A stretch of 64,000 bases of DNA from Natrinema gari JCM 14663 (GTDB lineage Archaea; Halobacteriota; Halobacteria; Halobacteriales; Natrialbaceae), in NCBI RefSeq assembly GCF_000337175.1, contig NZ_AOIJ01000030.1, positions 140,441 to 204,440 of the forward strand, read 5' to 3'. Made by a program: the position numbers and the translations under genes. The notes under the pieces are model-generated. The model did no database searches, was not told the origin of the DNA, and worked only from the letters and a program-made list of their open reading frames with translations. The stretch's first letter is position 1. Each line of letters starts with the position of its first letter. This document shows positions 32,137 to 37,995 of the stretch, piece after piece.

Positions 32137-33570
32137 TCACGGCTCCGAGTCGGCGTCTCGCAGCGTCCCGGCGAGTACCTTCGCGGCGACCAGAACCGGG
32201 TCCCACGTGGTATTGAACGGCGGCGCGTACGCGAGGTCGTAGTTCTCGACATCGGTGACGGTCGCCTTCGCCTCGAGCGCTGCGACGATGGCGTGACTCC
32301 GATGGACCGCACCCTCGCCGTACTCGCTGACGAGGCTTGCACCGAGGACGCGACCGGAATCGCGATCGGCGGTCAGCGTGACGGTGACGGTCCCGTCAGC
32401 GGGGTAATAGCCAGCGCGCGATTTCGCCGTCACCGTCTCGGTTACCGGATCGAACCCCGCCGCACGGGCCTCCTCGTGGTCCAGAACCCCGGTTCGAGCG
32501 GCCTCGCTGTCGAAGGCCTTGACCGCCGCCGTGCCGGCGATGTCGCCCCCTTCGGTCGGCGTCCCGGTGACGGTCCGGCCGATCGCGCGGCCGTGCCGGT
32601 TCGCGGTCAACGCCAGCGGGACGTACGCTGGCTCGCCGGTAACGACGTGTGTCGCCTCGGCGCAGTCGCCCGCGGCGTAGACATCGGAGACGTTCGTCTC
32701 GCGATAGGCGTCGGTAGCGATCGCCCCGGTCTCGCCGAGGGCAATCCCGGCGGCCTCGGCGAGGTCGGTCCGCGGACGAACGCCGGTGCCGAGCAACGCC
32801 ATCTCGGCCTCGATGCGGTCGTCGGCCGTGACGACCGCCTCGACGCGGTCATTACCCGACAGTGCCCGGACCTCGGCATCGAGGTGGAGCACGACGTCCT
32901 CGTCTCGGAGGTGCTCGGCGACGTACTCGCTCGTTTCGTCGCTGAACCCCTTCAAGACGCGGTCGCCGCGCTGGAACAGGTTCACTTCGAAGCCGTTCGC
33001 CGCCAGCGCCTCGGCCATCTCGATCCCGATGTAGCCGCCGCCGACGACCGCGACCGGACCGGTGCAGTCCTCGAGGTACCGACAGGCCGGCCCCCGGTCG
33101 GGCTGTTGGAGGTCCGCGTCGTCGCGCGCTCTGGCGACGTACTCGCGCAGTTCCCGCCCGTCGCTCATCGAGCCGAGGGTGTACACGCCGTCCCGGTCGA
33201 CCCCGTCAATGGGCGGCACCACCGACTCCGCGCCCGTCGCGATCAGCAGGTGGCCGTACGGCTGGACGACCGTTCCGGACTCGCGTTCGGCGGTGACCGT
33301 CCGCTCGTCGGTGTCGATGGCGACGACCTCGTGGCCGGTCCGGAGGTCGATGTCGCGTTCCTCGCGAAACTCCTCGGGGGTCACCGAGACGAGATCCTCG
33401 AGCGACTGGATCTCCCCTTTGATGTAGTAGGGAAGTCCGCAGGCACCGTAGGACACCCACTCGCCCCGCTCGAAGACGACGATATCGCGGTCGGGAGCGG
33501 CACGCCTGGCCTTGCTCGCCGCTGACATTCCCGCTGCGTCACCGCCGACGACGACGAACGGATCGCTCAT
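32137..33570 (-). CDS. CoA-disulfide reductase/NADH oxidase-type flavoprotein
   Basis: The 477-residue protein is a class III pyridine nucleotide-disulfide oxidoreductase. The N-terminal FAD motif is VVVGGDAAGMSAASKARR, the single redox-active Cys is Cys44 in SYGACGLPYY, an NAD(P)H motif is GPVAVVGGGYIGIEMAEAL (about 168-186), and the second FAD motif is VSDVYAAGDCAEATHV. The C-terminal dimerisation domain (GYYPADGTVTVTLTADRDSG, NYDLAYAPPFNTTWDPVLVA) is present. Such enzymes reduce CoA disulfide, O2 or polysulfide. Which is not deducible. Start ATG 33570 fits the conserved N-terminus. Confidence 0.92.
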   Translation of the reverse strand: MSDPFVVVGGDAAGMSAASKARRAAPDRDIVVFERGEWVSYGACGLPYYIKGEIQSLEDLVSVTPEEFREERDIDLRTGHEVVAIDTDERTVTAERESGTVVQPYGHLLIATGAESVVPPIDGVDRDGVYTLGSMSDGRELREYVARARDDADLQQPDRGPACRYLEDCTGPVAVVGGGYIGIEMAEALAANGFEVNLFQRGDRVLKGFSDETSEYVAEHLRDEDVVLHLDAEVRALSGNDRVEAVVTADDRIEAEMALLGTGVRPRTDLAEAAGIALGETGAIATDAYRETNVSDVYAAGDCAEATHVVTGEPAYVPLALTANRHGRAIGRTVTGTPTEGGDIAGTAAVKAFDSEAARTGVLDHEEARAAGFDPVTETVTAKSRAGYYPADGTVTVTLTADRDSGRVLGASLVSEYGEGAVHRSHAIVAALEAKATVTDVENYDLAYAPPFNTTWDPVLVAAKVLAGTLRDADSEP

Positions 33571-33700
33571 ACCACCACTAGAGTCCAGCGAGCCATATAA
33601 CTGCTAACTGCCCATGCACCGTCAGCGCCGAAGCAGCGACGGGACGTCGATCGGAGCCGAAGCAGGTCACCACTCCGGCGACGAACCGACCGACCCGGCG

Positions 33701-34285
33701 TTATCGGCGACGACGGAGGACCATCACGCCCGCTGCTGCGATCCCGACAATACCGACGGCGACAGCAGTGGTAGTCGCCGATGCGAAACTGGCAGACTGC
33801 GTTTCGTTCCCGTCGGACTGCGACTCGTCGCTGCCGGCGCTGGACTGGGCATCGTCACCTGGATATTCGAGGGTGGCACGATCGGTAACCGTTTTCTCGA
33901 AGTGTGTGTGCACCGCTTCCCCGTTGATGGTCCCTTCCAGGTGGACGACGTAGTCGCCCGCCTCGGTGAAGACGACCGGGGCTTCGTAGACGCCCGGCTC
34001 GCCGTACTTTTCGCTGCTCTCGAGGGCCGTCTTCTCGTGCCCCTCCAACTGGATCGAGACGGTCAGGTTCTCCGAGACGTTCTCGACCGGCTCGCCCGAT
34101 TCCGCGTCGACGATCTCGAACTCGAGCCACATCCGCTCGCCGGTGACCAGCGGCTCGTCCGCGCCGCCGAAAGTCACCTCGTTCCCGGCGACATCTTGGG
34201 TGTCGTGAGCCACGGCCGGCCCAACGGCGCTGAGCAGCACTAACGCGGTCACTCCGATTACAAGCAGGTATCTCGTCTGTCTCAT
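33701..34285 (-). CDS. Exported single-pass membrane protein, YtkA-like
   Basis: The 194-residue protein has a signal peptide (RYLLVIGVTALVLLSAVGPAVA), a beta-sandwich domain (residues about 27-150: ERMWLEFEIVDAESGEPVEN, LTVSIQLEGHEKTALESSEK, GEPGVYEAPVVFTEAGDYVV, HTHFEKTVTDR) and a C-terminal membrane anchor (AVAVGIVGIAAAGVMVLRRRR) preceded by a Ser-rich stalk. The fold and HTHF motif recall YtkA-like, FixH-like or copper-related extracellular domains, but this is a guess. Its C-terminal basic stop-transfer is typical of surface-anchored halophile proteins. Confidence 0.7.
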   Translation of the reverse strand: MRQTRYLLVIGVTALVLLSAVGPAVAHDTQDVAGNEVTFGGADEPLVTGERMWLEFEIVDAESGEPVENVSENLTVSIQLEGHEKTALESSEKYGEPGVYEAPVVFTEAGDYVVHLEGTINGEAVHTHFEKTVTDRATLEYPGDDAQSSAGSDESQSDGNETQSASFASATTTAVAVGIVGIAAAGVMVLRRRR

Positions 34286-34580
34286 CGTATCCGGGACGAC
34301 GAGCCACGGTATCTATGTCGTTCTGGTTCGATTCTCGGACGGGAATGTAACGTGAGAGACAACACGATAATCGCGAGCGCGCTCCTCGAACGACGTCACG
34401 CGGCTCGTGTACGGCCACAGCGACGAGTCCTCGTCGGATGCGACTCGTGACGGTCTCTATTTCTGATCGAAGCAACGGATGTGAGGAACGCCGCGACGGA
34501 GCCGATTAACGGCGCAGAGGGGGAAATGAGACCGTGCGGTTCCACAGGTGTACAGCGGAGACCGAAAAGCAACAGCGTTT

Positions 34581-35318
34581 CTACCAGTCGAGTTCGGTGC
34601 TGAGTGCTTCGAATACCCTCGCGACGGCTTCGTATCGTTCGGCCGAATCAAACTGCAACTGCCTCGGCTTCGTAGGGCCAATTTTATTGATTATCTTTGC
34701 TATTGTCAAGTCCGAACCGATTTCCCACTCAAGACGGATCTCGCGGCGTTCGTCGTCTAGATCAACGCTGGTTATGTTCGTCAGCTTGTTACACCCCTCG
34801 CCCTCGAGACAGAGGTTCGGCGGCGAGAGCTCATAGTGTTGCCCATCAGCGTACCAATCGGCGAGTGTTCCGGCTGGAAGGAGTGCTGCCGATTCGCTTT
34901 CAATACTGCTCCGAATAGCAATGTCGAGATCGGGACTCACGGACGCATCGATCTTGAACGTTGGATGATCCGGGACGTAAGTGAGCAGTCGCTGTCCGTC
35001 TCGAGACGCGTCTAAACGCGTTAGCGAGACGAACCGGTGAAAGGAAGTCATCGACAGTAACTCCGAGAGACTGTGTCTAACATCATCGACATCTCCCCTG
35101 AAACGTTCGTCGTTCACACGAGCGAACGCGTCACGGAGGGATGCGACGAGATCCGGGTGATCGTCAGCCAACTGATCTTCGGACAGCCAGATATCGACGG
35201 TGTCCGCGTGATCTAATGCCGCGTCAATCGCGGCGTTCGTCGCGCGAATCCCGGCCGCTTGATCGCCGGTTACGATCAAGACGTGCGTCGGGTTGAACTC
35301 GGAGTTTTGTTGGGACAT
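34581..35318 (-). CDS. Uncharacterised 245-residue protein
   Basis: The ORF starts MSQQNSEFNPTHVLIVTGDQ and ends FEALSTELDW. It has a hydrophobic-strand start that looks Rossmann-like (HVLIVTGDQAAGIRATNAAI), a helical middle (LSELLSMTSFHRFVSLTRLD) and a beta-rich half (ITSVDLDDERREIRLEWEI). The family is unknown to me. It is 9 bp downstream of a hydrophobic 63-residue ORF, so the two may form a unit. DNA is noticeably more AT-rich than the flanks. Confidence 0.65.
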   Translation of the reverse strand: MSQQNSEFNPTHVLIVTGDQAAGIRATNAAIDAALDHADTVDIWLSEDQLADDHPDLVASLRDAFARVNDERFRGDVDDVRHSLSELLSMTSFHRFVSLTRLDASRDGQRLLTYVPDHPTFKIDASVSPDLDIAIRSSIESESAALLPAGTLADWYADGQHYELSPPNLCLEGEGCNKLTNITSVDLDDERREIRLEWEIGSDLTIAKIINKIGPTKPRQLQFDSAERYEAVARVFEALSTELDW

Positions 35319-35327
35319 CGATGTCGA

Positions 35328-35519
35328 TTACACGAGCGGCACACCAACCGGCGGTGCGACAGTACTCGCAGCGAGGGAGTACGCGAGGGCCGTCACCACG
35401 ACTCCTGGAATTGCAACTCCGGCTGCATCTGCGGCCCTATTGATTGCGTTTTCGAACGCATCCCGGAGAGCGGACACACTCGGAGCGCCATCCCCCGATC
35501 CGCAGACGGCGTACACCAT
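35328..35519 (-). CDS. Small hydrophobic protein of 63 residues
   Basis: The product has a short N-terminus with one Cys (MVYAVCGSGDGAPSVSA), an amphipathic helix (LRDAFENAINRAADAAG) and a hydrophobic C-terminal helix (VAIPGVVVTALAYSLAASTV) ending APPVGVPLV. It is followed at 9 bp by the 245-residue gene and overlaps the 3' half of a larger ORF in another frame (35393-35692). The composition is like a membrane-active peptide or a small membrane partner. Whether it is translated is unproven. Confidence 0.45.
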   Translation of the reverse strand: MVYAVCGSGDGAPSVSALRDAFENAINRAADAAGVAIPGVVVTALAYSLAASTVAPPVGVPLV

Positions 35520-35692
35520 TTACTCTCGTGCTCTTCTCCAACCCAGATACAGTTACCGGTGTGACCAATCCAGATATTGAGTCCGTCACGATAGTCTCTT
35601 TCCGGGAATATTGCGAAACGGCCGTCCGGCATCGGCGGCGGATCGGGCTCATCACATTCGAGTGAATGACCACTATCGTCGCACGGACACAC
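35393..35692 (-). CDS. Cys/Trp-containing ORF of up to 100 residues, possibly frameshifted into the next ORF
   Basis: The first 60 residues look protein-like (CPCDDSGHSLECDEPDPP, GRFAIFPERDYRDGLNIW, GHTGNCIWVGEEHESKW), but after that the frame becomes shadow while the 63-residue ORF (35328-35519) becomes protein-like. A one-base frameshift near 35520 would fuse the two into one protein of about 120 residues. The start shown is GTG 35692; a TATA-like TTATAAC at 35695-35701 makes the in-frame ATG 35632 more likely. This may therefore be one broken gene or two overlapping small genes. Confidence 0.4.
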   Translation of the reverse strand: MCPCDDSGHSLECDEPDPPPMPDGRFAIFPERDYRDGLNIWIGHTGNCIWVGEEHESKWCTPSADRGMALRVCPLSGMRSKTQSIGPQMQPELQFQESW

Positions 35693-35913
35693 CAGTTATA
35701 ACCGACCATCACGTTCTCCGTCGTTACGCGCACCGTGTTTCAGTTCTCGTCAAAACCGACAGATCGCTTTAGGGTCTGCCCATCTTCTGGTTTGTGTGAG
35801 TGATGACTAACGGCGCAGTTACGACGATTGCACCTCGGGAATATCCCCCTACGCTCGGTATATCCGTTACTGGTGACCGTACTGAGCGAACGCGAGCAGC
35901 TCAGATGTAGCGT

Positions 35914-37011
35914 TCAGCTCCGCTCTTCCTCGGAGAATCGCCACGGGCTCTCGACATCCGTCGCCGCCTCGTCCCTCGAGAGCGGGACATTGTGATACAG
36001 TTGCTCGAGGTGGTCCATGGTGTAGCCGACCGAGTAGCGCTCGACGGCCGCTCTGGTCTCGCGGTCGGTCGCCAGACAGGTCTCGATGGCCTCGACCATC
36101 GAATCGAGATCGCCGTACGCGAAGCGCTCGCCGTTGTCGGGACCGATCGTCCGGTCGAACGGCGGCGCGTCGGTAGCCGCGACGGGCGTCCCGCAGGCGT
36201 TCGCCTCGAGCGTCGAGAGCCCGAGGGTATCGGCGGTCGAGGCGGTGACGAAGGTGTCGATCGAGGAGTAAAAGGTCGGCAGCTCCTCGCGGGGGAGGAA
36301 GTCCCGGAATTCGACGTTGTCCGGTGCTGCCCGCTCGAGGGAGTCGCGGTACGGGCCCTCGCCGACGATGACGAAATCGTACGCCGGTAGCGCTTCGGCG
36401 GCCCGGAGGATCTCGTTGACGTTTTTCTCCATGCTGAGTCGGCCGCTGTAGCCGATGACGGTCCGATCAGGATACCAGTCCGCCGCGGTGGGCTGGAAGA
36501 AGTCCATATCGATCCCGACCGGGAGCTGGACGTGTTCGACATCGCGCTCGATCCGCTCCGTCGACGCGGTCACGACGTCGAAGCTCCTGAGGAAGGCGTT
36601 CTCGCCGGGCACGTACAGCTTCGAGAGCAGCCCCGCGATCGACTCGAGTTTGATGCTCTGGTGGAAGTACTCCTCGAGAGGCGTGTGATGCGTGTAGATC
36701 GTCGGTAGATCGTGTTTCCAGGCGTAGTACCGGCCGAGGATACCGATCGGTGCGGGGCCGTGACAGTGAACGACGTCGAGGTCGGGGAGCGTCGATGCCC
36801 GTCTGGCGAGCGGGATTCGGTAGCCGGCGTAGAACGGGTTCGGCAGCGATCTGACGGGGAACTCGCGATCACCGGGCTCGTAGTCGCCGTCCGGATAGAT
36901 GACGGACACCTCGTGGCCCTTGCGTTCTAACTCCTCGCGCCAGAGTTTGATCGTATACGTTACGCCGTCTATCTCGGGAAAATAGCTGTCGGTAAAGAAT
37001 CCGATTTTCAT
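35914..37011 (-). CDS. Glycosyltransferase family 4 protein
   Basis: The 365-residue protein is a GT-B glycosyltransferase. It starts MKIGFFTDSYFPEIDGVTYT, the donor/acceptor loop of GT4 enzymes such as alpha-mannosyl or phosphatidyl-inositol type transferases. The C-terminal nucleotide-sugar site reads VIGYSGRLSMEKNVNEIL, FVIVGEGPYRDSLERA and TASTADTLGLSTLEANACGT (E-x7-E type). It acts on lipid or glycan acceptors at the inner face of the membrane. Its ATG directly follows the TGA of the next glycosyltransferase (zero gap), so the two are one operon. Confidence 0.93.
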   Translation of the reverse strand: MKIGFFTDSYFPEIDGVTYTIKLWREELERKGHEVSVIYPDGDYEPGDREFPVRSLPNPFYAGYRIPLARRASTLPDLDVVHCHGPAPIGILGRYYAWKHDLPTIYTHHTPLEEYFHQSIKLESIAGLLSKLYVPGENAFLRSFDVVTASTERIERDVEHVQLPVGIDMDFFQPTAADWYPDRTVIGYSGRLSMEKNVNEILRAAEALPAYDFVIVGEGPYRDSLERAAPDNVEFRDFLPREELPTFYSSIDTFVTASTADTLGLSTLEANACGTPVAATDAPPFDRTIGPDNGERFAYGDLDSMVEAIETCLATDRETRAAVERYSVGYTMDHLEQLYHNVPLSRDEAATDVESPWRFSEEERS

Positions 37012-37995
37012 TCAGCACACCTCGTCGTACAGCGACTGATATCGGTTCGCGACCGTCGACAGCGAGAACGCCTCGCTGCGGCGGGCGGCGTTCGTTCCGA
37101 GCCGGTTCCGGAGCGTCGGCTCTTTGAGTCGCTCGAGCGCAGCCGCGAACCCGTCTACGCCCGCGTCGGCAACCTTCAGACAGTCCTCGCCGTCCTCGAG
37201 CCACGAGAACGTCTCGATATCCCGGACGAGGAGTGGTTTCCCGGCAGTCATCGCCTCCAGCAGCGCGATCCCCTCGTTTTCCTCGTGGGTCGGGAAACAG
37301 AAGATGTCGCCCGCCGCGTACGCACCGCGGATGTCGTCGACGAAGCCGGTGAACGTACAGTTGTCAGGGGCGTCCTCGATCAGGCGCGTCGTCTCCCGTC
37401 CCTTCAGGGAGAGGTCCAGCGGGCCGAACCACGCGAAGTCGAGGGCCGGCAGCCGACGCGCCAGTTCGACGAACGTCTCGAGGCCCTTGCGCTTGATCAC
37501 GTGGCCGACGAGGAAGACGGTCGGCGGGCTGAGATCGTACCGATCGCGGTACTCGGCCTCGAGCGACTCGAACCCCGCGAGTTTCGCTCGATCGACGCCG
37601 TTCGAGATGACCGTCGTCGGCATGTCGGTGTAGGTTTCGATGAGGTCCCGGTTGTACTCCGACGGACAGACCAGCGCGTCGGCCAGCCCGTAGGCCCACC
37701 GGAGGTAGGGTGACAGCGGTTTCGCGAGGGCGTTGGTAAATCGGAAGCTGTCCCCGAAGTCCTCCGCGGTCACGTGTGTGTTCGCGACGACGGGCACGCC
37801 CAGTGACCGGGCCCGCTTTGCGTACCAGACCGAGCGCGGCCCCATGAGATTACAGTGGAACACGTCGGCGTCGAGCGTCGGCTCGACCGTATACTCGAGG
37901 TCCAGTCGATCCAGCATCTTCCGCTGGTGGACGACGGACTCGTGAATGCCGCCGGTGACGTGGTCCTCGAACTCGAAGTAGTGGCTGATCTTCAT
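37012..37995 (-). CDS. Glycosyltransferase family 4 protein
   Basis: The 327-residue protein starts MKISHYFEFEDHVTGGIHES, with a C-terminal GT4 half: FLVGHVIKRKGLETFVELAR, FAWFGPLDLSLKGRETTRLI, and the conserved THEENEGIALLEAMTAGKPL (E-x7-E motif). The two acidic residues and K/R of the donor site are present. Together with the downstream GT4 gene and the alkaline-phosphatase-superfamily genes upstream (38088, 39078), it suggests a lipid-linked or surface glycan pathway. Confidence 0.92.
   Translation of the reverse strand: MKISHYFEFEDHVTGGIHESVVHQRKMLDRLDLEYTVEPTLDADVFHCNLMGPRSVWYAKRARSLGVPVVANTHVTAEDFGDSFRFTNALAKPLSPYLRWAYGLADALVCPSEYNRDLIETYTDMPTTVISNGVDRAKLAGFESLEAEYRDRYDLSPPTVFLVGHVIKRKGLETFVELARRLPALDFAWFGPLDLSLKGRETTRLIEDAPDNCTFTGFVDDIRGAYAAGDIFCFPTHEENEGIALLEAMTAGKPLLVRDIETFSWLEDGEDCLKVADAGVDGFAAALERLKEPTLRNRLGTNAARRSEAFSLSTVANRYQSLYDEVC

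Follow-up and report, generated by a model that had tools for sequence, protein, structure and literature searches.

The window, i.e., the 64,000-nucleotide stretch of Natrinema gari JCM 14663 DNA analysed here, contains three closely packed minus-strand open reading frames (ORFs) of 99, 63 and 245 residues (35393–35692, 35328–35519 and 34581–35318, respectively), raising the question of whether they represent three small genes, a toxin with its immunity partner or the debris of a single gene. The ORF list agrees with the arrangement described in an earlier note on this DNA: the 99-residue ORF, which starts with GTG, overlaps the 63-residue ORF in a different frame, and the latter is separated by 9 bp from the 245-residue ORF (hereafter p245). 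Two conserved anchor genes on the same strand flank the unit, a glycosyltransferase gene upstream (35914–37011, minus strand; Pfam PF00534) and a YtkA-like gene downstream (33701–34285, minus strand; Pfam PF13115). The base composition is indeed unlike that of the surroundings, with a G+C content of 56.4% over 34581–35692 versus 64.2% for the whole window (equally low in 4.9% of 629 windows of equal length) and a third-position GC of 62.6% in p245 versus 84.4% and 79.0% in its two neighbour genes. Rfam at gathering thresholds gave no match over 33500–37100, and a tRNA scan of the whole window found none. No Pfam or NCBIfam model passed its cut-off for the three window proteins, p245 included, in line with the earlier view that the last ORF has no known family, or for the two homologous precursors scanned; PADLOC gave no match to any model, and PHROGs nothing better than E 0.049. 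Sub-threshold matches to amphi-Trp (0.022–0.025, p245 homologue of genome G004), SepQ (0.15, precursor P0002) and phrog_35999 (0.049, window p245) were set aside as chance.

The two small ORFs have their counterparts in one gene elsewhere. Tblastn shows that their conserved parts share a single frame directly upstream of p245 in genomes G004 (locus L006) and G097 (L019), where the pieces are continuous in one 314- or 315-residue ORF with a signal of the twin-arginine translocation (Tat) type. Residues 5–61 of the 99-residue ORF (~35510–35680), corresponding to a Cys/Trp domain, are 72% identical over 57 residues to residues 198–254 of the G004 precursor P0001, and residues 5–63 of the 63-residue ORF, from ~35509 on, are 73% identical to its residues 256–314, the C-terminal 59 residues. 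The start of the 63-residue ORF (~35510–35519) and the remainder of the 99-residue ORF past residue 61 are out-of-frame readings. Frameshift-aware alignments to P0001 and P0002 resolve the minus strand into three pieces, each in a different frame: a scrap reading N-W-C-V-R (35683–35697), then, after a shift near 35680, the Cys/Trp domain, read as in the 99-residue ORF, and, after another shift near 35509, the C-terminal 59 residues, read as in the 63-residue ORF. The whole recognisable pseudogene (35328–35697, minus strand) is thus a 3′ part with two frameshifts, matching the last ~125 residues (the last two fifths) of the 299–315-residue precursors; in these alignments the window shows nothing recognisable of the N-terminal ~190 residues or of the Tat signal that they contain. 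Judging from the alignments, a single inactivated gene, split between frames, accounts for both the 99- and the 63-residue ORF, so that the three ORFs amount to two predicted genes, a pseudogene and an intact gene. Of the readings offered earlier, one frameshifted precursor therefore proves right for the two small ORFs, given their single frame in L006 and L019. The earlier note had also held that its proposal of an undescribed system would fall if one known gene, misread in frame, accounted for the 63-residue ORF; one gene does account for it, but not a named one.

That the frameshifts are assembly errors, in a gene functional in the real organism, is very improbable: the window genome is a draft of 88 contigs and a single-base error could explain each frameshift, but only ~215 bp lie between the precursor remnant and the upstream gene, whereas the missing N-terminal part with its Tat signal would need ~570 bp, pointing to a real deletion however good the draft, and three further genomes hold remnants of this gene. 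Programmed frameshifting was rejected, since it would have to accommodate two shifts and a lost 5′ part and the intact homologues appear to need none. The idea that all three ORFs are real small genes translated as annotated, the first for a Cys peptide, the second for a hydrophobic peptide and the third for a partner, deserves hardly any credit: open frames with starts are present, but similarity to the intact homologues breaks off in one frame and is taken up in the other where the frame changes, and neither the rest of the 99-residue ORF nor the start of the 63-residue ORF has a counterpart in the searched loci beyond one chance-level match (E 9.2).

The intact homologues allow the original gene pair to be described. 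With P0001 as query, matches at E 0.01 or better are found in 28 of 391 genomes of the class, and the closest full-length matches, in G004 itself, G097, G185 and G216, span four genera and three families. In all four of these closest intact homologues found, a p245 homologue starts 4–52 bp downstream: the G004 and G097 precursor ORFs end 6 bp before it, and the same order, an intact precursor and then p245, recurs in other families in G185 (4-bp gap) and G216 (52-bp gap). The G216 partner is very diverged, with 18% identity to the window p245. As the G185, G097 and G216 partners were themselves rows of the p245 profile, each was left out in turn for a new search of 179 ORFs, which recovered them at E 9.4e-59, 1.3e-42 and 3.7e-16, respectively, the next unrelated ORF scoring 0.23 or worse. 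The four precursors share a layout of Tat motif, variable N-domain, Cys-containing domain and hydrophobic C-terminal segment, and their mean pairwise identity rises from 30% in the N-domain to 54% in the Cys-containing domain and 66% in the C-terminal 58 residues. The most hydrophobic stretch of each lies within the C-terminal segment, and the C-terminus ends in A-P-P-x-G-V-P or close variants. At the other end, the intact homologues carry a twin-arginine motif and a hydrophobic stretch, to which the Pfam TAT_signal model responds for P0001 only below threshold.

The C-terminal part of the precursor and p245 are thus adjacent in G004, G097, G185 and G216, and remnants lie beside p245 elsewhere. 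Bacterial bacteriocin cassettes have a toxin gene directly followed by a protective gene, and examples are known in which the toxin has decayed and its immunity gene was kept. The order found here, an exported precursor gene and then a conserved partner, is of this bacteriocin/immunity type as far as gene order tells, and toxin decay with immunity retention would be a second likeness; unlike those cassettes, the present ones are archaeal, have Tat-type export and combine related precursors either with a soluble family of 240–280 residues or with several multi-pass membrane proteins. A peptide/immunity pair of halocin type, one of the readings put forward earlier, is accordingly the best description of the cassette as it stands in other genomes, though not of the window copy, in which the precursor piece is a pseudogene. 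Support is lacking for the alternative of an intracellular, type II toxin-antitoxin unit, since an export signal of the Tat type is present on the intact homologues and no toxin-antitoxin model appears among the family matches. The earlier interpretation as a whole therefore stands in part, with the frameshifted precursor here and the halocin-type pair elsewhere retained, and the toxin-antitoxin unit and the count of three genes given up.

The fate of the precursor next to p245 was followed in 35 p245-family loci (30 from a profile search of the class and 5 from a search of the family, weaker matches without a locus being left out). Tblastn with the four intact precursors detected, upstream of p245, the four queries themselves and remnants in the window genome (G000) and G005; a profile of the last 62 precursor residues added upstream remnants in G017 (E 9.5e-17) and G103 (E 5.8e-4), and at the same spot in G335 a match short of significance (E 0.89). 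Downstream of p245, tblastn found no match in any of the 35 loci and the 62-residue profile reached only E 1.4 at best. By both methods, 27 of the 35 loci have no significant precursor trace upstream. In the tree of p245, loci with an intact precursor, a remnant or neither are intermixed, with remnants in three clades and the G103 remnant in a fourth, and the intact and remnant labels cluster no better than after shuffling; the long branches of G216, G097, G001, G185 and G306 are of unsure place. If the cassette descended with p245, this interleaving implies at least three decays of the precursor with p245 kept; exchange of cassettes may have taken the place of repeated decay. Precursor-family copies that are split or bear stops were also found in G169, G173, G257, G346, G394 and G097, and their number indicates frequent decay. 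Five of them lie at G169 C2:803267–804177, G173 C1:329462–330162, G257 C47:3363–4335, G346 C3:305672–306432 and G097 C86:80845–81794.

The partner gene shows no such decay in the window. p245 (34581–35318, minus strand) is an intact open frame of 245 codons, and its dN/dS is 0.19–0.25 between the window and three relatives without a precursor, 0.30–0.34 among those three relatives and 0.36–0.65 (NG86) among Haloarchaeobius-type copies, the last indicating weaker constraint. By these estimates, loci with a decayed or missing precursor still keep p245 as an open frame under constraint. Homologues occur in 39 of 125 genomes of the family, and the p245 profile has matches in 87 of the 391 class genomes; relatives that a contig search gave by name are Natrinema ejinorense, Haloarchaeobius sp. 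FL176 and Haloarchaeobius iranensis. Two Halorussus plasmids carry p245 matches (30.8% identity; E 2e-21 and 7e-21), and upstream of one of these the precursor C-terminus gave no significant match (E 0.47). No segment of p245 is both hydrophobic and long enough to cross a membrane, its highest 19-residue Kyte-Doolittle mean being 0.92. Its predicted structure (AlphaFold2, four rows) is poor, with a mean pLDDT of 53.9, and a fold search with this model gave no match (best E 0.36). Among solved structures, sequence searches found no relative of p245, and the single precursor match (E 0.5) is at chance level.

Beyond the p245-linked cassettes, the precursor belongs to a wider family with other partners. 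Profile A6, built from 13 precursors, has matches at E 1e-6 in 27 of the 391 genomes. From the 42 places listed for it, 22 were taken after split, partial, remnant and locus-less ones had been dropped, and one of these gave no ORF; the remaining 21 loci have a readable precursor ORF, and what follows it is p245 in 4, an ORF of multi-pass type in 15 and neither in 2 (G302 and G144). A plain hydropathy rule defined a multi-pass-type partner: an ORF on the precursor's strand, no more than ~310 bp after it, with two or more hydrophobic segments. Thus 15 of the 17 members without p245 pairing are followed by a hydrophobic partner of this kind, and 13 of the 15 partner ORFs have 160 residues or less. 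In a control of 116 genes, taken from the window and eight other loci with a home-made gene caller, the same rule selected 16, of which 5 have 160 residues or less. The 15 are not 15 independent cases, as near-duplicate loci are among them (G169/G211, G024/G063 and G018/G066/G077). The partners differ in kind, with ~105 residues in G018, G066 and G077, 120 in G169 and G211, and ~82 in G033 and at a second G216 locus (L119). The ~82-residue, two-pass-looking proteins (L040 2797–3045 in G033; L119 2466–2711, minus strand, in G216) share the stretch G-L-Y-x-T-R-N-I-Y-R-W-S and have two different precursors upstream. The window's own genome holds a second, apparently intact member on contig C86 (G000:C86; L118 2271–2978, minus strand), of ~236–246 residues with a Tat-type signal, and 32 bp after it a 116-residue, hydrophobic, multi-pass-looking protein (L118 1885–2235, minus strand). 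Plasmids contributed one weak match to P0001 (E 1e-3) and two to a distant precursor; like the p245 matches on the Halorussus plasmids, these are annotated as hypothetical or unannotated. A distant precursor match lies in two pieces on a plasmid of halophilic archaeon DL31 (CP002989.1; L132 3001–4160), in which the hypothetical protein Halar_0690 follows the annotated CDS Halar_0689 by 45 bp. Scans of viral contigs with profile A3 and P0001, records near the window's genome being excluded, detected no relative.

What, then, was the unit in the window? We consider it reasonably likely that it is a decayed two-gene antagonism cassette in which a halocin-like toxin is dead and a 245-residue candidate immunity protein is retained. 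In such a cassette, the precursor would be a halocin-like toxin exported folded by the Tat system and possibly processed outside the cell by a protease, which is reported for some halocin precursors; its conserved C-terminal part would insert into the membrane of competitors, and the soluble p245 would protect the producer from inside. In the window genome the toxin would be dead and p245 left as an orphan immunity protein against related producers. The intact p245 is probably a protein that protects its owner against the toxin.

A finding that speaks against this reading is that the p245 family is wider than the cassette, with matches in 87 of 391 genomes versus only 27 of 391 for the precursor and with 27 of 35 loci devoid of a precursor trace; p245 may therefore have a general role, lent to the cassette by one branch. 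The main rival accordingly keeps the precursor as a halocin-like toxin and takes p245 to be a maturation, expression or general stress factor with a general function, recruited by one cassette lineage. It would suit the lack of a membrane-spanning segment, and in one branch p245 lies, in several members of the genus, beside the same small genes (by-eye labels: ubiquitin-like and small membrane protein), as a housekeeping gene might. However, p245 remains open and constrained without the precursor, which would be expected of an immunity gene but not of a dedicated maturation factor, and most distant precursors have a membrane protein in its position, so that we judge a general factor unlikely. 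More improbable still is that the precursor is an exported structural, adhesion or signalling protein with p245 as its cytoplasmic regulator. No toxin family matched the precursors scanned, which such a role would explain; but the patchy spread (27 of 391 genomes), the many broken copies, the conserved hydrophobic C-terminus and the swapping of partners appear typical of antagonism genes.

If the preferred reading of a toxin with its immunity protein holds, the membrane-protein partners would do the same job for the distant precursors. We put forward more tentatively, as a possibility, that haloarchaea possess an undescribed superfamily of Tat-exported, halocin-like toxins, built of a variable N-domain, a Cys-containing domain and a membrane-active C-terminal helix, with modular immunity, provided by p245 or by one of several multi-pass membrane proteins, and that many lone p245 genes are orphan immunity genes left after toxin decay. 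To our knowledge, few halocins are known at the gene level. Were the superfamily real, separate and swappable partners would offer a route to archaeal toxin/immunity pairs by sequence, and some lone "hypothetical" haloarchaeal genes would be explained as immunity genes. The four intact pairs found make a direct test of toxin and immunity function possible.

A sequence that we take to be HalC8 served as query for proteins of the halocin C8 precursor (ProC8) type and detected a HalC8-like domain in 5 of 9 genus genomes. In the window's genome, a halocin C8 domain 92% identical to this presumed mature HalC8 lies at G000:C52:23253–23480 (L127), in an open frame of only 194 residues, so the precursor may be truncated there. 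In an hhalign comparison of profile A6 with four ProC8-type proteins (two of them near-identical), only the 22-column signal peptide aligned; membership of the halocin C8 family was therefore rejected, neither the HalI nor the HalC8 part aligning. Halocin C8 is described as made from a Tat-exported 283-residue precursor consisting of the immunity part HalI and a 76-residue peptide, so that immunity lies in the precursor itself (PMC11509114). The two systems are alike in Tat export, similar precursor size, occurrence in Natrinema and an N-terminal part followed by a Cys-containing hydrophobic C-terminal part; they are unlike in that our precursor has no counterpart of the Cys-rich 76-residue peptide and that protection here is probably provided by a separate downstream gene rather than by the N-terminal part of the precursor. 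The HalC8-like precursors at L130 and L131 (268-residue ORFs; G063 and G061) have a 125-residue hydrophobic protein encoded downstream, which might mean that the HalC8 type too has an immunity gene of its own beside it.

Haloferax mediterranei halocin H4 (HalH4) and HmHapP (HFX_0892) are described as secreted precursors cut by the halolysin HlyR4, HalH4, like HalC8, releasing a C-terminal fragment and HmHapP acting through its N-terminal 45 residues (PMC12893001). The likeness to our precursors lies in the probable logic of an inactive secreted precursor activated outside the cell; unlike what is proposed for ours, HmHapP acts by its N-terminal end, and the sections covered discuss no separate immunity gene for HalH4 or HmHapP. 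Searches of the databases and literature covered here could not match the halocin-like precursor family to a described one. In the literature covered on halocins, archaeal immunity proteins and Tat-exported toxins, no description of the precursor/p245 family was recognised; a survey by Makarova and colleagues (mBio 2019), outside this coverage, reportedly deals with archaeal antimicrobial peptides and may mention relatives. The earlier suggestion of an undescribed system is thus plausible, since no family model passed its cut-off and no description was recognised, yet not proven.

The neighbouring genes suggest how the cassette may have come to its site. The upstream glycosyltransferase gene is present in all 29 genus genomes, and the ~1.5 kb after it was read in 29 loci of 28 genomes (one genome having two; the truncated G072 copy was left out). 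p245 follows it in only 4 of the 28 genomes read, namely G000, G052, G059 and G060. In G051 and G063, the nearest relatives by the flanking gene (glycosyltransferase 98% identical to the window's), the YtkA-like gene comes directly next, ~280 bp after the glycosyltransferase gene, with no cassette; homology to the window resumes at ~34361, so that in this empty-site comparison the cassette region (34361–35913) is replaced by ~200 bp. Silent-site divergence of p245 from G052, G059 and G060 is 0.58, 0.96 and 0.93, higher than that of the glycosyltransferase gene (0.33, 0.44 and 0.43, respectively). The empty site in the two nearest relatives and the higher silent divergence of p245 support acquisition, as the earlier note had supposed from base composition, the unit being AT-richer than its surroundings; the pattern fits a separate allele acquired at a shared site. 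The spot at 34361–35913 is variable within the genus, being empty in G051 and G063 and holding other or unmatched content in further genomes besides those with p245.
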